The position numbers were made by a program, and so were the translations under genes. Of a DNA stretch of 64,000 nucleotides, positions 32,428 to 42,161 are shown piece after piece. Location: contig JAMLHW010000002.1 in assembly GCA_023954475.1 (NCBI GenBank), positions 62,001 through 126,000 of the forward strand, in the 5' to 3' direction. The notes below the pieces were generated by a model. That model saw nothing but the letters and a program-made list of their open reading frames with translations. It ran no database searches and was not told where the DNA came from. Origin of the DNA: Anaerolineae bacterium (GTDB lineage Bacteria > Chloroflexota > Anaerolineae > Promineifilales > Promineifilaceae). Position 1 is the first letter of the stretch; each line of letters starts with the position of its first letter.

Positions 32428-35400
32428 ATGACACGGCAAACAGTGCGGACGCTTGACGGACGGGCTGTGCGTGCGCTTGTTTTTGTCGCGTTCGCCGTCG
32501 TTGTGCTGGCAACAATGGGTGCGTTGATCGTGCGGCATGCGTTTTTGACGCGCGGCATCCCGGACGATTACCCGGAACCGATAGCACACGCCGCTGCGCG
32601 GCTCGGTGTCAATGTCTACCTGTCACAAGTCGGCGAAGATGAATTGGCGGAAACCTTTGCGGCGGTTGAGGAAGCCGGTTTTACTGTAGTCAAGCAATCG
32701 TTTAACTATTCGGGCGAGAATCAGTTCGATTGGACTGTTGCTGACCGCATTGTCGATGCCGCTGCGTCTGCCGGACTCGACATTGTACCGTTGCTGGATG
32801 GTGATCCGGCCAACAACTACGCACCACCGGCTGATCCGGCTGCATTTGCCGACTGGGCAGGTGAATTTGCGCAACGCTACAGTGATGTTGTCGATTACTA
32901 CATTGTGTGGGATGAGCCAAATTTGGCGGCGCATTGGGGCAATGAGCAGGTCAATGCCGACGACTATGCCGCGTTGCTCAGCGCGACTGCTGAGACAATC
33001 CGTTCGGCCGATGCGACCGCAACCATTGTCGCAGCGCCACTGGCTCCAACAACAGAAACCAACAGTGTCAATCTCAGCGATGTGAGCTATCTCCAGGCCA
33101 TGTACGAAGCTGGTGCAGCCGATGCGTTTGATGTTGCCGCCGCCAAACCATATGGTTTTGACTATGGCCCGGATGACCGCCGCGTTGATCACGACGTACT
33201 CAATTTCAGTCGTGCCGTTCTGTTGCGCGAGGTTATGGAGCGCAACGGTGATGCAGCAACGGCACTGTGGGCCGGCAACTGGGGTTGGAATGCATTGCCG
33301 GACGATTGGCAAGGTGCGCCATCTCTTTGGGGCCGGGTTGATGAGGCGACACAGGCAGCATGGACGGCCACAGCATTGGAGCGCGTAGTGACCGAGTGGC
33401 CATGGATGGGAACGCTGTTTCTCGAAAACTGGGAACCGGCAGCGCCGGCCGACGATCCGCGCTGGGGATTCAGCATTGCCAATCGGCCGATTCTCGATGC
33501 GCTGCAGGCGGTGTTGCCGTCGGCTGCTGTGGCCTACCCAGGTTTTCATCCGGCTTCAGACGCAGACCCGGCACAGCAATATCGCGGCGACTGGCGTTTT
33601 TCGGCCGATTATGGTGCCGACAGCAGCGAAAAAACAGGCGATCAACCCCGCGACAGCGTAGAATTCCGCTTTTGGGGCACCGATCTGGGTTTGCGCGTGC
33701 GCCGCGCCGATTTTCGTGCCCGCTTCTATGTCACTGTCGACGGTGAGCCTGCCAATGCGCTGCCAACGGATGAATACGGAGCAATGCTCGTACTCGACGC
33801 ACCTGATCCGGCCGAAGATTACATCACCATTGAACCGGTCGCTGCCAATTTGCCTCCCGGAGAACATGTCGCCACCATTACGGCTGAGCGTGGTTGGGGG
33901 CAGTGGGCGCTGAACGGTTTTAGCGTTGCGTACAACCCGCCGACGACATCGTTACATCGCGCTTTGCTGCTGCTTGGCGCACTTGCCATGGCGTTGCTGG
34001 GTTTGGCCTGGCGCGATGCACGGCATGCTGATTGGGGTGCGGCAGGTACGCGTTTCCATGCCGGGTACAACCGACTGCACAGCCGGACGCAATTGGTGCT
34101 CGTCGGCGCCGTTGCGGCTGTTGTGTCGCTTACAGGCTGGTTGACCTGGGGTCAACAGGCAGCGGGTGCGTATCGCCGTCTGGGAGACGGAACACAACTG
34201 GCGGCGGTCGTCGCAACGGCGGCTGTATTTTATGTGACCCCGACATTTTTCATCACCATGGCAGCGCTGGTCGTTCTCGTTATTCTGCTCAGTTTTCGGC
34301 CGGCGTGGGGATTGGCATTGATTGCGCTGACGATGCCGTTTTATGCACTCGATTTACTTAAGCCGGTATTCAGTTATCGATTTTCGCCGGTTGAGCTGTT
34401 TACCTGGGCAGCATTGGCCGGATTTTTGCTGGCGCAGGCAACGGCGATAGCAAAACGGCGTTCACTTTCGGCCGAAAAGCCGCTGCGTCGCCGCTTGATT
34501 GGCGCTGATTATGCCGTCATCCTGTTTACTCTGGTCGCTACGGCATCGCTGTTTTTCACAGCACGGCTTGATCCGGCGCTACGCGAATGGCGCACCGTGA
34601 TCGTCGGTGCGGCACTGTTATACGCTCTGCTACGCTGGATTCGGCCGACGCCGGACGAGATGTGGGTTGTGTTGGGTGCCTGGGTACTTGGTGCTGTTCT
34701 CGTTTCCTTGATTGGCCTCGGTGAATACGGTCTCGGCAGCGATCGGATTACGGCCGAAGGCGGTTTATTTCGCCTGCGTTCGGTCTACGGCTCACCGAAC
34801 AATGTCGCGCTGTATTTCGGCCGAATACTGCCCGTGTTGCTGGCGATGCTGCTGCTCGGCCATTCAGCCGCTGTGTGGCGACGCCGTCTATACGCCGTGG
34901 CTTTGCTGCCCATCGGATTGGCCGGGATGCTGACATTCAGCAAAGGCGGCTTGCTGCTGGCGTTTCCAGTCGGCGCGTTGATCGTATTTGTTTACTGGCA
35001 GCGCGTTAACCAGCGACGAATCTGGCCGTGGCTACTTCTGTTTGTCGTGGTAGGTGGTTTGAGTTTAGTGGCGTTGCTGCGTCTGCCGCCGCTGGCCTCG
35101 CGATTTGACTTGCTCGGAGAAACGAGCCTGCTGCGTTTCAATTTGTGGCGTGCCGGTATCAATATGTTCCGCGATAATTTCTGGAGTGGTGTTGGCCTGG
35201 ACAACTTCCTCACCGCGTATCGAGGTCGTTACATTTTTGCCGAAGCGTGGCGCGAACCTAATCTGAGTCATCCGCACAATTTTTTGCTTGATTTCGGCAC
35301 GCGGCTGGGCATCTTCGGTCTTCTTGCCGGACTGTGGCTGCTGTTCACGTTGGGACGAATTGTGCTGCTGTTGCCGTTCCGGATTAGCGCAGAATGGCGT

Positions 35401-35571
35401 CCCGTTGCGGTTGGCCTTATCGCGGCATTTGGCGCGATGGTGGTGCATGGTCTCGTCGACCACATGTTTTTTCTGGTTGATCTGGCCTATGTTTTTTATC
35501 TGATGCTGGGCGTGGCAGTGTGGTTGCAGCGACCCGGTGCGCCGCCAGGCGGTGCAGGACAGCCAACGTAA
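32428..35571 (+). CDS. Glycosidase-like domain fused to O-antigen-ligase-type membrane domain
   Basis: A 1047-residue protein. A membrane helix at about 13-34 leads to an outer TIM-barrel-like domain (about 50-370) resembling GH39/GH5-type cellulase-like folds; VVDYYIVWDEPNLAAHWG near 155-172 carries the likely acid/base Glu. A beta domain of carbohydrate-binding type (about 385-510) follows, then ten or more membrane helices with the Wzy/O-antigen-ligase pattern: SPNNVALYFGR in an early loop and HPHNFLLDFGTRLGIFG near 948. The fusion suggests one protein that trims or recognises a glycan and also polymerises or ligates it. It opens the surface-glycan region that runs to 42 kb. Which glycan is unknown, and the second catalytic Glu of the barrel is not certain. 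Confidence 0.7.
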   Translation: MTRQTVRTLDGRAVRALVFVAFAVVVLATMGALIVRHAFLTRGIPDDYPEPIAHAAARLGVNVYLSQVGEDELAETFAAVEEAGFTVVKQSFNYSGENQFDWTVADRIVDAAASAGLDIVPLLDGDPANNYAPPADPAAFADWAGEFAQRYSDVVDYYIVWDEPNLAAHWGNEQVNADDYAALLSATAETIRSADATATIVAAPLAPTTETNSVNLSDVSYLQAMYEAGAADAFDVAAAKPYGFDYGPDDRRVDHDVLNFSRAVLLREVMERNGDAATALWAGNWGWNALPDDWQGAPSLWGRVDEATQAAWTATALERVVTEWPWMGTLFLENWEPAAPADDPRWGFSIANRPILDALQAVLPSAAVAYPGFHPASDADPAQQYRGDWRFSADYGADSSEKTGDQPRDSVEFRFWGTDLGLRVRRADFRARFYVTVDGEPANALPTDEYGAMLVLDAPDPAEDYITIEPVAANLPPGEHVATITAERGWGQWALNGFSVAYNPPTTSLHRALLLLGALAMALLGLAWRDARHADWGAAGTRFHAGYNRLHSRTQLVLVGAVAAVVSLTGWLTWGQQAAGAYRRLGDGTQLAAVVATAAVFYVTPTFFITMAALVVLVILLSFRPAWGLALIALTMPFYALDLLKPVFSYRFSPVELFTWAALAGFLLAQATAIAKRRSLSAEKPLRRRLIGADYAVILFTLVATASLFFTARLDPALREWRTVIVGAALLYALLRWIRPTPDEMWVVLGAWVLGAVLVSLIGLGEYGLGSDRITAEGGLFRLRSVYGSPNNVALYFGRILPVLLAMLLLGHSAAVWRRRLYAVALLPIGLAGMLTFSKGGLLLAFPVGALIVFVYWQRVNQRRIWPWLLLFVVVGGLSLVALLRLPPLASRFDLLGETSLLRFNLWRAGINMFRDNFWSGVGLDNFLTAYRGRYIFAEAWREPNLSHPHNFLLDFGTRLGIFGLLAGLWLLFTLGRIVLLLPFRISAEWRPVAVGLIAAFGAMVVHGLVDHMFFLVDLAYVFYLMLGVAVWLQRPGAPPGGAGQPT

Positions 35572-35616: not shown

Positions 35617-35632
35617 CAACAATTGATTGTTG
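35617..35632. promoter_or_regulatory. Inverted repeat upstream of acpP
   Basis: CAACAAT-TG-ATTGTTG, a 7-2-7 inverted repeat 29 bases upstream of the acpP -35 box. It could be an operator or a weak end for the preceding message; nothing decides between these. Confidence 0.35.
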
Positions 35633-35660
35633 AAAAACAGCGATCTGATGGTATCGTTAC

Positions 35661-35688
35661 TTGACATTAGAACTAATAAATCTACAAT
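35661..35688 (+). promoter_or_regulatory. Promoter of acpP
   Basis: TTGACA (35661-35666), 16-bp spacer, TACAAT (35683-35688). Near-consensus and well placed, about 38 bases before the start codon. Confidence 0.75.
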
Positions 35689-35725
35689 TAGACGGGTTGA
35701 AAGCTTTTTTTGCAGGAGAAATACG

Positions 35726-35983
35726 ATGGATGAAAGTATAGTAAATGAAGTGCGCGAGGCTATTACAAAGATAGTTGTCGAATTGTTGGGCGTCGATGAA
35801 AGCAGGGTGGTAGACGAAGCTCGTTTCCGTGAAGATTTAGAAGCGGACTCATTGGATTTAGTCGAATTGATTATGGCAATGGAAGAGGAATTTGAAAGCG
35901 AAATCTCTGACGAAGAGGCGCAGAAAATTACCACTGTCGGCCAGGCCGTTGAGTATATTGTCGAGCGTATGCCGCAATCATAG
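35726..35983 (+). CDS. acpP: Acyl carrier protein
   Basis: An 85-residue ACP. The phosphopantetheine site is Ser42 in [12 protein letters not shown], and the protein is very acidic, as usual. The frame extends 33 codons upstream, but the ATG at 35726 has AGGAG ahead of it and gives normal length. It stands alone with its own promoter and terminator, apart from other fatty-acid genes, so it may serve general fatty-acid synthesis or lipoate formation. Confidence 0.95.
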
Positions 35984-36088: not shown

Positions 36089-36721
36089 TCACGACCGTGC
36101 GTAACGGCGTAGCTGGTATAGTCCTGCAGCGGCCAACAGGGCAAAACCCAGCGTGTTCAGCCAGACGCCCAAGCCAATTCCCACCGGAGATCGCAGCAAA
36201 TTGGAGATTATCGGCCGAAGCTCCCAGTAAGCCCACAGCGGCAGAATCGTGCCCACCGCAGCGATCACGACGATGCTCCCCATGACGCCCCGTGGAACAC
36301 GCCCCAAAAACGGCGCAGCCAACACGGCAATGCCGACCAATCCAATCCATGACAACCGCAATAGCCACTCTGTTGTCGGTTCGTTCAGGATTGCTTCAAC
36401 TGCCGGAAAAGCCAGCAAACTGACGGCAACTGCCAACCCGCGCATCGTCCATGTGCGCCAATTGTTCGGCCATATTGCGGTGAAAAGCGCCATGATCAGG
36501 CCTAATGCGATTGGCGGTATGTAGAAGAAATTGCGACTGGCACTCACTTGCCCGCTGCGCACTTCCGGCAGAAATTTGACCCATTCGCCTAGTTCGACAC
36601 CGATAAAGCTCAGCCCGGCATTTTGATTGGGAAGCCAGATTGTGAGATAGCCGACCAGTACTACACTAACGCCCAGCGCCAGCACGATCGTTTCTGGTGC
36701 CCGATTGCGATGGTCGGTCAT
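36089..36721 (-). CDS. Integral membrane protein of unknown function
   Basis: A 210-residue protein with about six membrane helices (near 12-31, 68-86, 92-112, 121-138, 146-166, 180-203) and little outside the membrane. I do not recognise a family. Its ATG overlaps the stop of the thioesterase gene by four bases, and that gene overlaps the GT4 gene, so it is the last of a tightly packed run (GtrA, GT4, thioesterase, this) on the minus strand. Its role may therefore be in envelope or lipid work, but that rests on position alone. Confidence 0.6.
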   Translation of the reverse strand: MTDHRNRAPETIVLALGVSVVLVGYLTIWLPNQNAGLSFIGVELGEWVKFLPEVRSGQVSASRNFFYIPPIALGLIMALFTAIWPNNWRTWTMRGLAVAVSLLAFPAVEAILNEPTTEWLLRLSWIGLVGIAVLAAPFLGRVPRGVMGSIVVIAAVGTILPLWAYWELRPIISNLLRSPVGIGLGVWLNTLGFALLAAAGLYQLRRYARS

Positions 36722-37224
36722 GTCGACTCTGGTTTGCGCTGCGCTTTTTCCTGTTCACGCAGCATCAGTCGAAACGCCTGACGCTCAACAGCCTCATCGT
36801 AGAGTCGTTGCTCTTCCTCCGTCTCCGGCTGCAAATTGGGCACGGTAGAAGGTCGTCCAACGCGATCGAGGCCCACGTAGACAATATAGGCCGTGTTGGT
36901 GTGGGCGATGTCGCCGGTCATGACATTTTCGGCCGTTACCGTGACGCGCGTTTCCATCGAAGTTCGGCCGACCCAGGTCACAACCGCATTCACTGTAACG
37001 AGATCACCGATGTGTACCGGTGCGCGGAAGGTCATCTGATCAACGGTGACCGTAACCGTGGGGCGGCGGGCGTGTTTGGTTGCCGCCATCGCGCCGGCTT
37101 CGTCGCACAGTTTCATCAGGAAACCGCCGTGTACGTACCCGCGTACATTACCGTCAGCCGGACCCATTAACTGCGTCAATGTGATACGGGATTCGCCGGG
37201 CGTTTTAGTGATGCGCTCATCCAT
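36718..37224 (-). CDS. Acyl-CoA thioesterase, hotdog fold (YciA/BFIT type)
   Basis: A 168-residue hotdog-fold enzyme. LMGPADGNVRGYVHGGFLMKLCDEAGAM, read in two pieces, contains the active-site Asn/Asp-rich turn and the HGG that starts the central helix; VTVTVDQMTFRAPVHIGDLV is the typical beta stretch. It would cleave acyl-CoA. AGGGAG upstream of the ATG at 37224 decides the start over an upstream frame opening at 37323. It overlaps both neighbours by a few bases. Confidence 0.87.
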   Translation of the reverse strand: MDERITKTPGESRITLTQLMGPADGNVRGYVHGGFLMKLCDEAGAMAATKHARRPTVTVTVDQMTFRAPVHIGDLVTVNAVVTWVGRTSMETRVTVTAENVMTGDIAHTNTAYIVYVGLDRVGRPSTVPNLQPETEEEQRLYDEAVERQAFRLMLREQEKAQRKPEST

Positions 37225-38401
37225 GTTGCAATTCTCCCTGGAGTAGTTTGTCGTAAATCTTGAGCAAGTGATAAGCTGATTTGCGCCACGAAAAACGGCG
37301 TGCCTGCATGGCTCCGGCTCCAATAAGGGCGACGCGACGCGGTGTGTTCAGCAGCAGGCGATGGATGGTTGCACGCCATGCTTCCGGGTCGTGTGGTGAG
37401 AGCAAAATGCCGGCATCGCCGACAACCTCGGGCAGGCAGGATGCATTGGAAGAAATGACCGGTACGCCACAAGCCATAGCTTCGAGCAGCGGCAGGCCGA
37501 ATCCTTCGTAAAGACTGGGAAACAGAAATAGTGTTGCATCGCTGTACAGAGCCGGCAGATCAGTTTCATCGACAAAACCGATAAACTGAACGCGGTTTTC
37601 CAATCCCTGTTGCGTTACTTCGGCGAAAATGTCGTCGAATAACCAGCCTTTGCCACCCGCAAAGATGAGGTTGTGGGGCCAGTCACGGGCAATGCCGGCA
37701 AATGCGCGAATGAGCATCTGGTAATTTTTTCGCGGCTGGACGGTGCCGACGCAGAGTAAATACGGCTTGTCGCCGATTGCGTAGCGCTGCCGCATTGCTT
37801 GTAGCTGGTTTGGTGCCGTAATCGGCCGAAACCGTTCATCCACGCCGCTGTACAAGACCGTCACCTTTGCCGGATCGACATCCCACAGGGTCGTCAGGTC
37901 AGCTTTGGTTGCTTCTGAATCGGCCAGTACGTGTGTTGCCCGGTTAACTGACCACGGCACAACGCGGTTGAGATAATCGACGAGCCGCTTGTCAAATGTA
38001 TTCGCATAGTGAACGAATGATAAATCGTGCACAGTCAGCAGCGTGGGAATTTTGCCGCGTACCGGCGGCAGCACAAAATCAGGTGAATGAAAAAGATCCA
38101 ATCCGCCTGTTACCCACTGTACGGCCAGGGGTAAACGTGCCCGGTACCATAATCGGTAAAGCCAGCGTTCGCCGATTGGAGCAGGCCGAAAGAGTGTATT
38201 GTCTGTGTCGGGCAGGGAAGTGGTAATTGGCGTATCGGCCGATACCTTAGCTGCAAACAAGCGATATTGGTTGTGTTGATCAATGGCGGTGAGGGCGTGG
38301 ATCAATTCGCGTGTGTAACGGCCGATTCCTGCACCCTGTAAAATGGCCGCTGTTACATCGATGCCGATGCGCGCCGGTTGATTGCCTCGTGCCACGCTCA
38401 A
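37217..38401 (-). CDS. Glycosyltransferase family 4
   Basis: A 394-residue GT-B enzyme. GIGRYTRELIHAL near 27-39 is the N-terminal glycine loop; the donor half starts at LCVGTVQPRKNY, and the conserved E-x7-E motif is in FPSLYEGFGLPLLEAMACG. Close in look to mannosyltransferases of the WbaZ/MtfB kind that build lipid-linked glycans. Cytoplasmic, using a nucleotide sugar. It overlaps the GtrA gene upstream by four bases, so both act in one pathway. Confidence 0.9.
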   Translation of the reverse strand: MSVARGNQPARIGIDVTAAILQGAGIGRYTRELIHALTAIDQHNQYRLFAAKVSADTPITTSLPDTDNTLFRPAPIGERWLYRLWYRARLPLAVQWVTGGLDLFHSPDFVLPPVRGKIPTLLTVHDLSFVHYANTFDKRLVDYLNRVVPWSVNRATHVLADSEATKADLTTLWDVDPAKVTVLYSGVDERFRPITAPNQLQAMRQRYAIGDKPYLLCVGTVQPRKNYQMLIRAFAGIARDWPHNLIFAGGKGWLFDDIFAEVTQQGLENRVQFIGFVDETDLPALYSDATLFLFPSLYEGFGLPLLEAMACGVPVISSNASCLPEVVGDAGILLSPHDPEAWRATIHRLLLNTPRRVALIGAGAMQARRFSWRKSAYHLLKIYDKLLQGELQHG

Positions 38402-38946
38402 TCCACGTCGCTATAAGTCCAGTATCGGTTGATGAAAAAGTTCCAGAACAACGCAATGCCAACAGCCAGAGCGAGCGCTAGATTTTTCCCCAGGCGCACG
38501 GCGACAGGTTCCGAAAGGGACGGAAACAACGTCGCTGCTGTGCGCGAAAAAAAGTTTACTGTAAGTGCCAGGATGGGTAAGCGAATGAAGATAGCACTGA
38601 TGTTGACCAGAAAGAATTGCGCAAATTGGCGCGGTAAGCTCTTTGAGCGCGAATCGGGGTATGTCCAATAACGATTCCAGATAAAATTGCTGATGACAGC
38701 CAGTACGAATGAGATTGTGCCTGCGATGATGGCGACGACTTGTTCCGGTGTTAATGTTGCCACAGGCTCAAACCAGGCGATCACATTTGCAGGCACATCG
38801 CTACGGCTAAGTGGTCCGATGAGCAGATTGTAAGTGCCAAAATCGACGACAGCGCCAATCACGCCGACGACGAGAAATTTTAGAAATCGCGTTAACTCTT
38901 TGGGGTTGACGCCAACCCGTGTTGCCACTGTTGTAATCATTGCCAT
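38398..38946 (-). CDS. GtrA-like membrane protein
   Basis: A 182-residue protein with four membrane helices in the GtrA pattern (FLKFLVVGVIGAVVDFGTYNLL; ISFVLAVISNFIWNRYWTY; and a final IALFWNFFINRYWTYSDVD). Two copies of NRYWTY close the second and fourth helices. GtrA proteins move or position polyprenyl-phosphate-linked sugars. It is followed by, and overlaps, the GT4 gene. Confidence 0.9.
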   Translation of the reverse strand: MAMITTVATRVGVNPKELTRFLKFLVVGVIGAVVDFGTYNLLIGPLSRSDVPANVIAWFEPVATLTPEQVVAIIAGTISFVLAVISNFIWNRYWTYPDSRSKSLPRQFAQFFLVNISAIFIRLPILALTVNFFSRTAATLFPSLSEPVAVRLGKNLALALAVGIALFWNFFINRYWTYSDVD

Positions 38947-39424: not shown

Positions 39425-40975
39425 CTAAGTCCTCTTGCTAGGTTCAGCCTGCATCAAGCGTTGCAGTACAATTACGATACCCAGCATTGTTCCCAACTGT
39501 AGATACAGGTTGTTGACATATAAGTTGTCCAGAAAGTGGTGCACAGCCATGCCCACCCAGGCACCCAGTAAACCTAGCGCAATGCCGCGTGCCTCCCACG
39601 AGCGCAATGCCAGCAGACGCACTGTTTGCCATACAATGACGAGCCATAGTCCGATGTAGGCAAGCAATCCGACAATACCGGTTTCGGCCAGCAGGTTGAG
39701 ATAGTAGTTGTGCGCATGGCCGAGCGCCAGCGGCCAGTTGACCAAGGCAAATTGTGAGTAGACGGCTTCGTAATTGCCGAAACCGACGCCGAGCCATAGT
39801 TCCTCGCGGGCCATACCCAATGCCGTTTGCCAATGTGCCAGCCGCTCGATGACGGCGAAATTGGCGTCATTGATATCGACGCCGCGCACGTCGGCCAGTT
39901 GCAAGTCGCCGAGAAAGCCGGTCAGCCGCGCCCAGATCGAAGCGGGAATAATGTCTAGCTGCCATGCTGCCACGAAAGCGAAGCCGCCGGCCAGGACGAG
40001 GAGAACACCGTAACGTCGTTTGCGTGGCAGGAAGAATGCCAGTACAACCATGCCGGCAGCGAAATTGATCCAGGCACCGCGACTCCACGAACTGAGCAAG
40101 GCACCCAACAATAAACATACAGCCACGACGAGAAAGCTGAGCCAAAGCCATGTGACGGCGTCTATACGGCGCAGATCTTGCTTGTGTTGCCATTGGTGCC
40201 ATAGCGCAATCAACAAGCCCAGCGCCGCGCCGCTGGCCACCGTCAGCATCATGCTGATGTAGCCGCCGTACGGATTGGGTTGCTGAAATGTGCCGGACGC
40301 CCGGTACAACCCCTCACTGATCAGGAAGTGTTCTGGGCCGTCGCCGCGCAAGGCGTATTGCCAGATGCCGAGCAGCGCCTGAAGCACGGCGCCGAGCAGT
40401 AAGATGAGCACGAGAAATCTCAGAAACCGGGTTCTTGTCAAAAACTCGGTTTTTTCAAGTCGCGTTTCGGCCGAATCTCCCTTCTTCTCTACCAAACGTT
40501 CACCGGAAGCGATGACCAACCACATGATCAGCGTGATTTCCACCCATTTGCCGATCTCCTTCAACCCGTCCCAGGTGGACGTCGTTTGCCACAATGTCAA
40601 CGCCATGACGGTGATGAAGAGCAGCAAAGGTAAATTGAACGTTGTTCGTGGTATATGCAGTTCGCGGTCGGCCAGCATTTGGATCAGCCAGGCAGCCAGT
40701 GCAAGGAAAAAGACGATTTGGCCGGAGGAAAATCGGCCGAAAACACCGCCGACAAAAACCGCCTCCCATGCGCCAAACGGGCCGACAAACAAGGCGATTG
40801 CTAGGCCGATTATCGGCCGAATAGTTATCGCCAATACCGCTGCAACACCGCCCACCAAAACCCCAGCGACAGCCGCCGGCAGCAACGCAACGGCCAGCCC
40901 ACAAACCAGGACAACAGCGCCCCATGCCCAGACACGCCAAACGTCACTCTGTACAGAAAGCGTCATACGCTGCAT
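39425..40975 (-). CDS. O-antigen ligase family (Wzy/WaaL-like) membrane protein
   Basis: A 516-residue protein with about twelve membrane helices. The ligase/polymerase signature is HAHNYYLNLLAETGIVGLLAY near 415-435 with the preceding outer loop (about 320-410). It is the second such enzyme in the region after the fusion at 32.4-35.6 kb, so one may polymerise and the other attach chains. Near codons 170-190 a hairpin-forming repeat (40421-40458) sits inside the coding sequence and gives the odd peptide TEFLTRTRFLRFL. Confidence 0.8.
   Translation of the reverse strand: MQRMTLSVQSDVWRVWAWGAVVLVCGLAVALLPAAVAGVLVGGVAAVLAITIRPIIGLAIALFVGPFGAWEAVFVGGVFGRFSSGQIVFFLALAAWLIQMLADRELHIPRTTFNLPLLLFITVMALTLWQTTSTWDGLKEIGKWVEITLIMWLVIASGERLVEKKGDSAETRLEKTEFLTRTRFLRFLVLILLLGAVLQALLGIWQYALRGDGPEHFLISEGLYRASGTFQQPNPYGGYISMMLTVASGAALGLLIALWHQWQHKQDLRRIDAVTWLWLSFLVVAVCLLLGALLSSWSRGAWINFAAGMVVLAFFLPRKRRYGVLLVLAGGFAFVAAWQLDIIPASIWARLTGFLGDLQLADVRGVDINDANFAVIERLAHWQTALGMAREELWLGVGFGNYEAVYSQFALVNWPLALGHAHNYYLNLLAETGIVGLLAYIGLWLVIVWQTVRLLALRSWEARGIALGLLGAWVGMAVHHFLDNLYVNNLYLQLGTMLGIVIVLQRLMQAEPSKRT
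40421..40458. repeat. Hairpin-forming AGAAACCGGGTT element inside a gene
   Basis: AGAAACCGGGTT at about 40421-40433 pairs with AACTCGGTTTTTT at about 40444-40456 with one mismatch. The same core forms the hairpin after dnaE (62848-62877). Here it lies within the O-antigen ligase frame and is translated. Confidence 0.5.
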
Positions 40976-40990
40976 CGACCCTTAGGTTGG

Positions 40991-41932
40991 CTACACTTTA
41001 TCACGAAAATAGGCGATTGTCTGTGCCAGACCATCTGACAAAGTCACCTGTGGTTCCCAGCCGAGAATTTGTCGCGCTTTTGTAATGTCCGGTTGACGCA
41101 CCTTGGGATCATCCGTAATGCGCTCATCATCCGGCTGCACAAACACGATCTCTGATTGACTGTTTGTTAACTCGACTACCGCTTCAGCAAACTCCAGAAT
41201 AGTCATTTCCGCCGGATTGCCAATATTCACCGGCAGCACTTCATCTGAATGCAACAGGCGATGGATGCCTTCAACAAGGTCACTGACATACTGGAATGAT
41301 CGGGTTTGCTTACCGTCCATGTACACCGTCAAAGGCTGACCGGTCAATGCCTGATAAATGAAGTTAGGTACGACACGCCCATCGTGCAGGCGCATCCGTG
41401 GTCCATAGGTGTTGAAAATACGTACGATACGCGTATCGACCCCATGATAGCGATGGTAAGCCAGCGTCATCGCTTCCGCAAATCGCTTGGCTTCATCGTA
41501 AACGCCACGCGGTCCAATTGGATTGACATGTCCCCAATACGTTTCCGGTTGCGGATTAATCTGTGGATCACCATACACCTCTGATGTGGAGGCAAGTAAG
41601 TAACGCGCTCCTTTTGCCTTGGCGAGACCCAGCGTGTTCATCGTACCGATTGAGCCTACTTTTAATGTCGGGATGGGGTGTTCCAGATAGTCATTAGGGC
41701 TTGCCGGCGACGCAAAATGGAGCACAGCATCGAGCGGCCCATCCACGTAGATGTAGTGATAGACATTGTGTTTGACAAAACTGAAGCGTTTGTGCCCGAA
41801 TAGATGGGCAATATTGTTCATACTGCCCGTAATGAGGTTGTCCATGCCAATGACCTCATGGCCTTCAGCCAAGAAGCGATCACTGAGATGTGACCCGACA
41901 AAACCGGCAGCGCCGGTAATCAAAATACGCAT
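40991..41932 (-). CDS. UDP-glucuronate decarboxylase (UDP-xylose synthase) type SDR
   Basis: A 313-residue extended short-chain dehydrogenase. NAD site [10 protein letters not shown] at 7-16; active-site Ser/Thr in [12 protein letters not shown] and the Tyr-Lys pair in [16 protein letters not shown] and [13 protein letters not shown] follow as in UXS enzymes. It converts UDP-glucuronate to UDP-xylose for surface glycans, matching the transferases and ligases beside it. GGAGAAGAT fits the ATG at 41932 rather than the frame opening at 42022. A dTDP-glucose dehydratase or other epimerase is less likely. Confidence 0.88.
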
Positions 41933-42161
41933 AATATCTTCTCCGCAGGATATGAAGCTCTTATAGATGGCGGGTGAATAGCTGTTTAGTTTACAATGAA
42001 AATGTAGTGTTCTGAAATTCACCAGTTAAGCAGCGTAATTGTAACCGTTATCTACGAGGCTTCAATGCCAATGCTGCCTTGACTCGCAATTCGATAATCT
42101 CCATAGTATACTCGCAGGGTTGGCGACGTGAAGGCGCCGAAAACGATTTTCTGGAGAGTGC

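Follow-up and report, generated by a model that had tools for sequence, protein, structure and literature searches.

The closest described relatives of the protein reported here belong to two kinds of glycan-assembly machinery. The first is PslG of Pseudomonas aeruginosa, a GH39 endo-beta-glucanase of Psl synthesis, in which Glu165 acts as the acid/base and Glu276 as the nucleophile (PMC11912335). PslG is described in PMC6813494 as membrane-associated, and its association with the inner membrane is reported there to be important for Psl production; a catalytic double mutant yields little Psl in P. aeruginosa, and the same paper remarks that PslG proved dispensable in the hands of another group. 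It is disputed what part PslG and other periplasmic glycosidases play in making, and not only cutting, the polymer, and the means by which glycan polymerases set the length of their chains and choose acceptors are themselves a long-standing question. The second system is the Wzy/WaaL superfamily, in which a conserved Arg and a conserved His of the outer loops are catalytic; its structural representative used here, 7tpg, is the WaaL O-antigen ligase of Cupriavidus metallidurans.

The window (the whole stretch of DNA that was analysed, 64,000 nucleotides long) contains a gene whose product joins a PslG-like barrel to a Wzy/WaaL-type membrane domain. Both halves fall into known families; their fusion, together with the repeated erosion of the glycosidase site, is apparently new, and no description of it was found in the open-licence literature. 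From comparison of sequences and folds we consider, with a probability of roughly 0.58, that the protein is a glycan polymerase/ligase of the Wzy/WaaL superfamily carrying the outer barrel as a built-in, non-hydrolytic binding module.

A PslG-like barrel and a ligase domain in one chain

The genome carrying the window measures 5.1 Mb and is 97.9% complete, the window lying in its contig 12. The fusion gene is one uninterrupted open reading frame beginning with ATG, and its parts are as follows:

32428..35571, + strand: fusion gene (1047 aa), encoding a transmembrane helix, PslG-like barrel, beta-sandwich, transmembrane helix and Wzy/WaaL-type membrane domain
32458..32547, + strand: first transmembrane helix, residues 11-40 (AlphaFold2 model; topology predicted)
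32563..33522, + strand: PslG/GH39-like (beta/alpha)8 barrel, residues 46-365 (AlphaFold2, profile, structure comparison)
33541..33942, + strand: beta-sandwich, residues 372-505, CBM-like by predicted fold (CE2_N below cut-off)
33946..34020, + strand: helix 507-531 after the outer domains, taken as transmembrane (AlphaFold2 model; putative membrane role)
34279..35541, + strand: WaaL/Wzy-type membrane domain, residues 618-1038 (Pfam, profile, structure comparison)

The sole Pfam match above cut-off is that of Wzy_C (PF04932) to residues 825-967 (67.9 bits, cut-off 31.7). The barrel matched no Pfam or NCBIfam model above any cut-off, and the beta-sandwich scored 15.8 bits against CE2_N, under the Pfam cut-off of 27.9. 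The AlphaFold2 model of the whole chain, computed from the window protein and 50 relatives, is confident (pLDDT 89.1, pTM 0.83) and displays a many-helix domain after helix 507-531, while the outer part modelled alone (residues 42-529) folds into a TIM barrel and a beta-sandwich with a pLDDT of 96.1. Three Lys or Arg residues lie among the 14 residues preceding helix 11-40, which would place the barrel outside the cell.

When the outer half was compared with solved structures (Foldseek/VIA), PslG ranked best, followed by other GH39 enzymes (for PslG, Z 29.5 over 321 residues, rmsd 4.5, 22% identity); a sequence profile of the family also retrieves PslG, with an E-value of 2e-30. The membrane half has the same fold as WaaL (residues 618-1038 against 7tpg_B: Z 25.9, 375 residues, rmsd 4.4) and matches it by sequence profile (E 8e-13), the HxHN motif, here within HPHNFLL at residue 948, being common to both; the fusion differs from WaaL in its extra outer barrel. 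The putative catalytic residues of the ligase half, R903 and H950, align with those of WaaL and are present in 105 of the 105 rows compared. These results bear out the initial annotation in so far as it described a real reading frame that combines, in a single chain, a glycosidase-type barrel with a DEPN acid/base motif (W161-DEPN), a beta-sandwich, putatively sugar-binding, and a complete Wzy/WaaL-type domain.

The fusion is recurrent and conserved. Barrel and ligase share one open reading frame in 26 of the 34 loci first gathered, and wider sets yielded 128 fusion ORFs over 139 loci and 160 over 179, counts that express recurrence rather than frequency since the loci were selected for matching. 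Of 400 genomes drawn from the phylum, 174 had a match at E <= 1e-20, a figure that mixes fusions with lone barrels. All named records are of Chloroflexota type (Anaerolineae, Thermoflexales, Ardenticatenia, Promineifilum), and all 80 loci retained of 486 bear Chloroflexota-type titles. An assembly artefact, which had been named as a possible objection, was rejected, as the fusion recurs in many independent genomes. One locus departs from the common layout: in L151:402-4298, a single ORF (1299 aa), the ligase half is preceded by two barrel matches; this may be a genuine double barrel, or an indel may have fused the neighbouring barrel gene to it.

Repeated loss of the glycosidase site

Alignment with PslG sets WNEPN of that enzyme on WDEPN of the window protein, and STEWGW on AGNWGW. 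The acid/base Glu is common to both proteins, E163 occupying the position of PslG Glu165; the position of the nucleophile Glu276 is taken by N284, the Glu being replaced by Asn. PslG stands alone as a protein and has the full pair of Glu residues, whereas the barrel of the window protein is fused to a Wzy/WaaL-type domain and has Asn for its nucleophile. In the AlphaFold2 model E163 stands just past the end of strand 4 (157-160), strand 7 (278-286) contains N284, and E333 comes just after strand 8 (327-332). The positions discussed below are:

32911..32916, + strand: D162-E163, end of strand 4; E163 aligns with PslG Glu165 (model)
33145..33147, + strand: K240, end of strand 6, coupled to D162
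33277..33279, + strand: N284, strand 7, at the position of the PslG nucleophile Glu276
33424..33426, + strand: E333, just after strand 8, a second carboxylate in a new place

The state of these positions was compared in 137 fusions (the 160 ORFs minus 19 duplicates and 4 short rows). Both Glu residues are kept in 45, only Glu284 is lost in 77, both are lost in 12 and only Glu163 in 3, so that at least one is missing in 92 of the 137 and Glu284 in 89. By comparison, barrel ORFs without a ligase domain keep both in 36 of 40 cases, the other four including the L089 and L032 ORFs, which run to the sequence end and are probably cut fusions, and L005, which is unaligned at position 284. The idea that the fusion gene is a lone ordinary member of its family was rejected: its barrel paralogues in the same genome, L002 and L003, have no ligase domain and keep both Glu. 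On the tree of the ligase halves there are at least 5 changes at position 284 and at least 5 at position 163.

The initial annotation had called the barrel a hydrolase and proposed that the fusion edits the length of a surface polymer by cutting it, leaving to be checked whether both Glu residues are present. The first Glu is indeed kept; the second is not, and the objection foreseen in that annotation, a barrel lacking a second carboxylate, largely holds, although such a carboxylate is present in a new place (E333). Given N284 and the 92 fusions without the full pair, length control by cutting is unlikely in the window protein, and as a general account of the fusions, most of which share its lack of the canonical nucleophile, we regard it as very improbable; it may hold for the 45 that keep both Glu residues. 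In some fusions the acid/base Glu is lost, being replaced in L157 (Ala), L164 (Gln), L165 (Asp), L166 (Gln) and L167 (Gln), with Glu284 kept in three of the five; in L165 a neighbouring barrel ORF has both Glu. In distant lineages a separate barrel gene with both Glu adjoins the fusion, as if a cutter and a holder lay side by side (L121, L122, L125, L127, L129, L132-L135 and L137-L139).

The presence of E333 means that catalysis might have been altered rather than lost, either with E163 as acid/base and a relocated carboxylate at 333, or by a substrate-assisted route through D162. Of the 89 fusions that have lost Glu284, 77 retain E163 and 66 have an acid at position 333; none of the 48 with Glu284 is acidic there. 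The residue read at 333 depends on the alignment in one group (Ser or Trp by alignment), though neither alignment puts an acid there in a protein with E284. Every one of the 77 fusions with E163 but no Glu284 has Asp at 162; among the 45 keeping both Glu, this residue is Asn in 37 and Asp in 8. Weighing against this explanation, the events on the tree are few: 5 changes at 284 and 8 for acid-333 leave only 2-3 independent pairs on supported branches, too few for a sign test to be informative. Moreover, D162 is coupled to K240, which may neutralise it (the 162/240 pair is D/K in 88 of 137 fusions and N/K in none), 23 of the 89 have no acid at 333, and one clade retains its ligase residues although all of these carboxylates are gone from it. 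We therefore hold altered catalysis to be unlikely, though by no means negligible. A more specific version is that the barrel switched chemistry, with the strand-7 nucleophile lost, an Asp-Glu pair gained at strand 4 and a further acid acquired just past strand 8, and that it acts as a built-in transglycosylase handing chain ends to the polymerase channel. An adjacent Asp-Glu pair is the layout of substrate-assisted N-acetylhexosaminidases; still, we consider such a switch distinctly improbable.

In the clade just mentioned, which comprises ten rows, both Glu are lost, all of these acidic and lysine residues are missing at positions 162, 163, 240, 284 and 333, and R903 and H950 are present in all ten ligase halves. 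As read from the alignment, the pocket has been rebuilt, and in this clade emptied, while the ligase residues stayed in place. In three of four groups the barrel has a higher pairwise identity than the ligase (0.504 against 0.466 in the group of the window protein), which argues that it is kept under selection; in the clade without either Glu it falls below (0.694 against 0.742). Among the 89 rows without E284, the cleft-type residues W161, N165, W170, Y242, W287 and W301 are each conserved in 95% or more, and it is from this conservation that their role in binding is judged.

Judged by sequence and predicted fold, the barrel is probably a retooled, non-hydrolytic glycan-binding module on a polymerase/ligase. 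The association of PslG with the Psl machinery, which matters for Psl synthesis, may serve by analogy as a precedent for a barrel within an assembly machine. Three observations sit less easily with pure binding: activity evidently matters in PslG, whose double mutant makes little Psl (PMC6813494); E163, which binding would not require, persists in most fusions that lost Glu284; and the carboxylate E333 and the Asp-Glu pair have appeared. The fusions constitute a natural experiment, in which the barrel has been put inside the polymerase chain and its catalytic residues removed repeatedly while its fold and the ligase were kept, and which suggests that the non-catalytic role of the barrel is what assembly needs.

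Gene neighbourhood and the possibility of protein docking

Downstream of the fusion the window encodes a set of genes on the opposite strand, all but the first of which the initial annotation had listed:

36718..37323, - strand: 4HBT thioesterase-fold protein, within the conserved neighbourhood
37217..38401, - strand: GT4 glycosyltransferase
38398..38946, - strand: GtrA-like membrane protein
39425..40975, - strand: second Wzy_C ligase/polymerase, without a barrel (72.6 bits)
40991..42022, - strand: UDP-glucuronate decarboxylase, i.e. UDP-xylose synthase (UXS1 2b69, E 4.8e-117)

The second ligase shares its Pfam family, that of the TIGR03097 PEP_O_lig_1/Wzy_C ligases, with the fusion, but has no barrel; its own match to TIGR03097 is below cut-off. 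In four relatives (L104, L108, L109 and L112) a single strand carries, in succession, a DUF348-G5-propeller protein, the fusion, UDP-xylose synthase, the second Wzy_C protein, GtrA and GT4. The window has UDP-xylose synthase, second ligase, GtrA, GT4 and 4HBT in the same order on the opposite strand, with a glyoxalase-type gene in between. Ten named loci, like the window, have both UDP-xylose synthase and the second ligase close to the fusion.

The G5-propeller gene bears on another explanation, namely that the barrel is a scaffold onto which a protein docks, for instance this very one, and binds no glycan. Among the 71 named loci whose upstream DNA measures 900 bp or more, 31 have the G5-propeller gene at most 200 bp upstream of the fusion. 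The window genome, however, has the fusion and no detectable G5-propeller protein, the same query having matched 37 of the 40 genomes of the relatives set, which includes that of the window (33 at E <= 1e-40), and the barrel keeps its cleft-type aromatic residues; docking without glycan binding appears improbable. In the window the fusion starts 82 bases past a DUF2267 gene, and in relatives such as L041, L056, L064 and L071 the G5-propeller gene sits between the DUF2267 gene and the fusion. The combination of G5/DUF348 with a beta-propeller occurs in L094:7229-9031 and in 34 similar genes next to the fusion in relatives, and the three genes checked in Pfam all score above cut-off for both DUF348 and G5. 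The DUF348-G5 layout is wall-associated, and the protein may connect the assembly of the glycan with the cell wall.

Cell context and a proposed model of assembly

The 97.9% complete genome of the window yielded no LpxC and no Omp85, in searches whose controls matched in 4 and 7 of 14, respectively. An LPS or lipid A acceptor is thus unlikely and, unlike for WaaL, not expected for the fusion, so that "O-antigen ligase", as the protein had been labelled, is a misnomer. Wzy-type pathways do exist in this genome, as indicated by 11 Wzy_C loci, 6 loci for Bac_transf initiating transferases and 5 Wzz loci (4 above cut-off). As a test case, the fusion bears on the surface glycans of Chloroflexota, in a genome without the LPS genes that were tested.

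If the barrel is a binding module, the most likely scheme would be the following. Lipid-linked repeats, probably containing xylose, would reach the outer face of the membrane, where the membrane domain would join them to a growing chain or to a surface acceptor. Standing over the membrane domain, the barrel and the sandwich would grip the chain or the incoming repeat and position it, the barrel thereby serving as a built-in processivity or acceptor-selection module. The ancestral barrel would have been an active glycosidase, a function that its unfused relatives have probably preserved, and its cutting residues would have been lost more than once after the fusion.

Two further genes of the window were noted. 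An acyl carrier protein gene (35627-35983) follows the fusion on its strand after a gap of 55 bases, and the product of 25394-26104 matches Lit (lipoprotein intramolecular transacylase) above cut-off, in what is a Chloroflexota-type genome.
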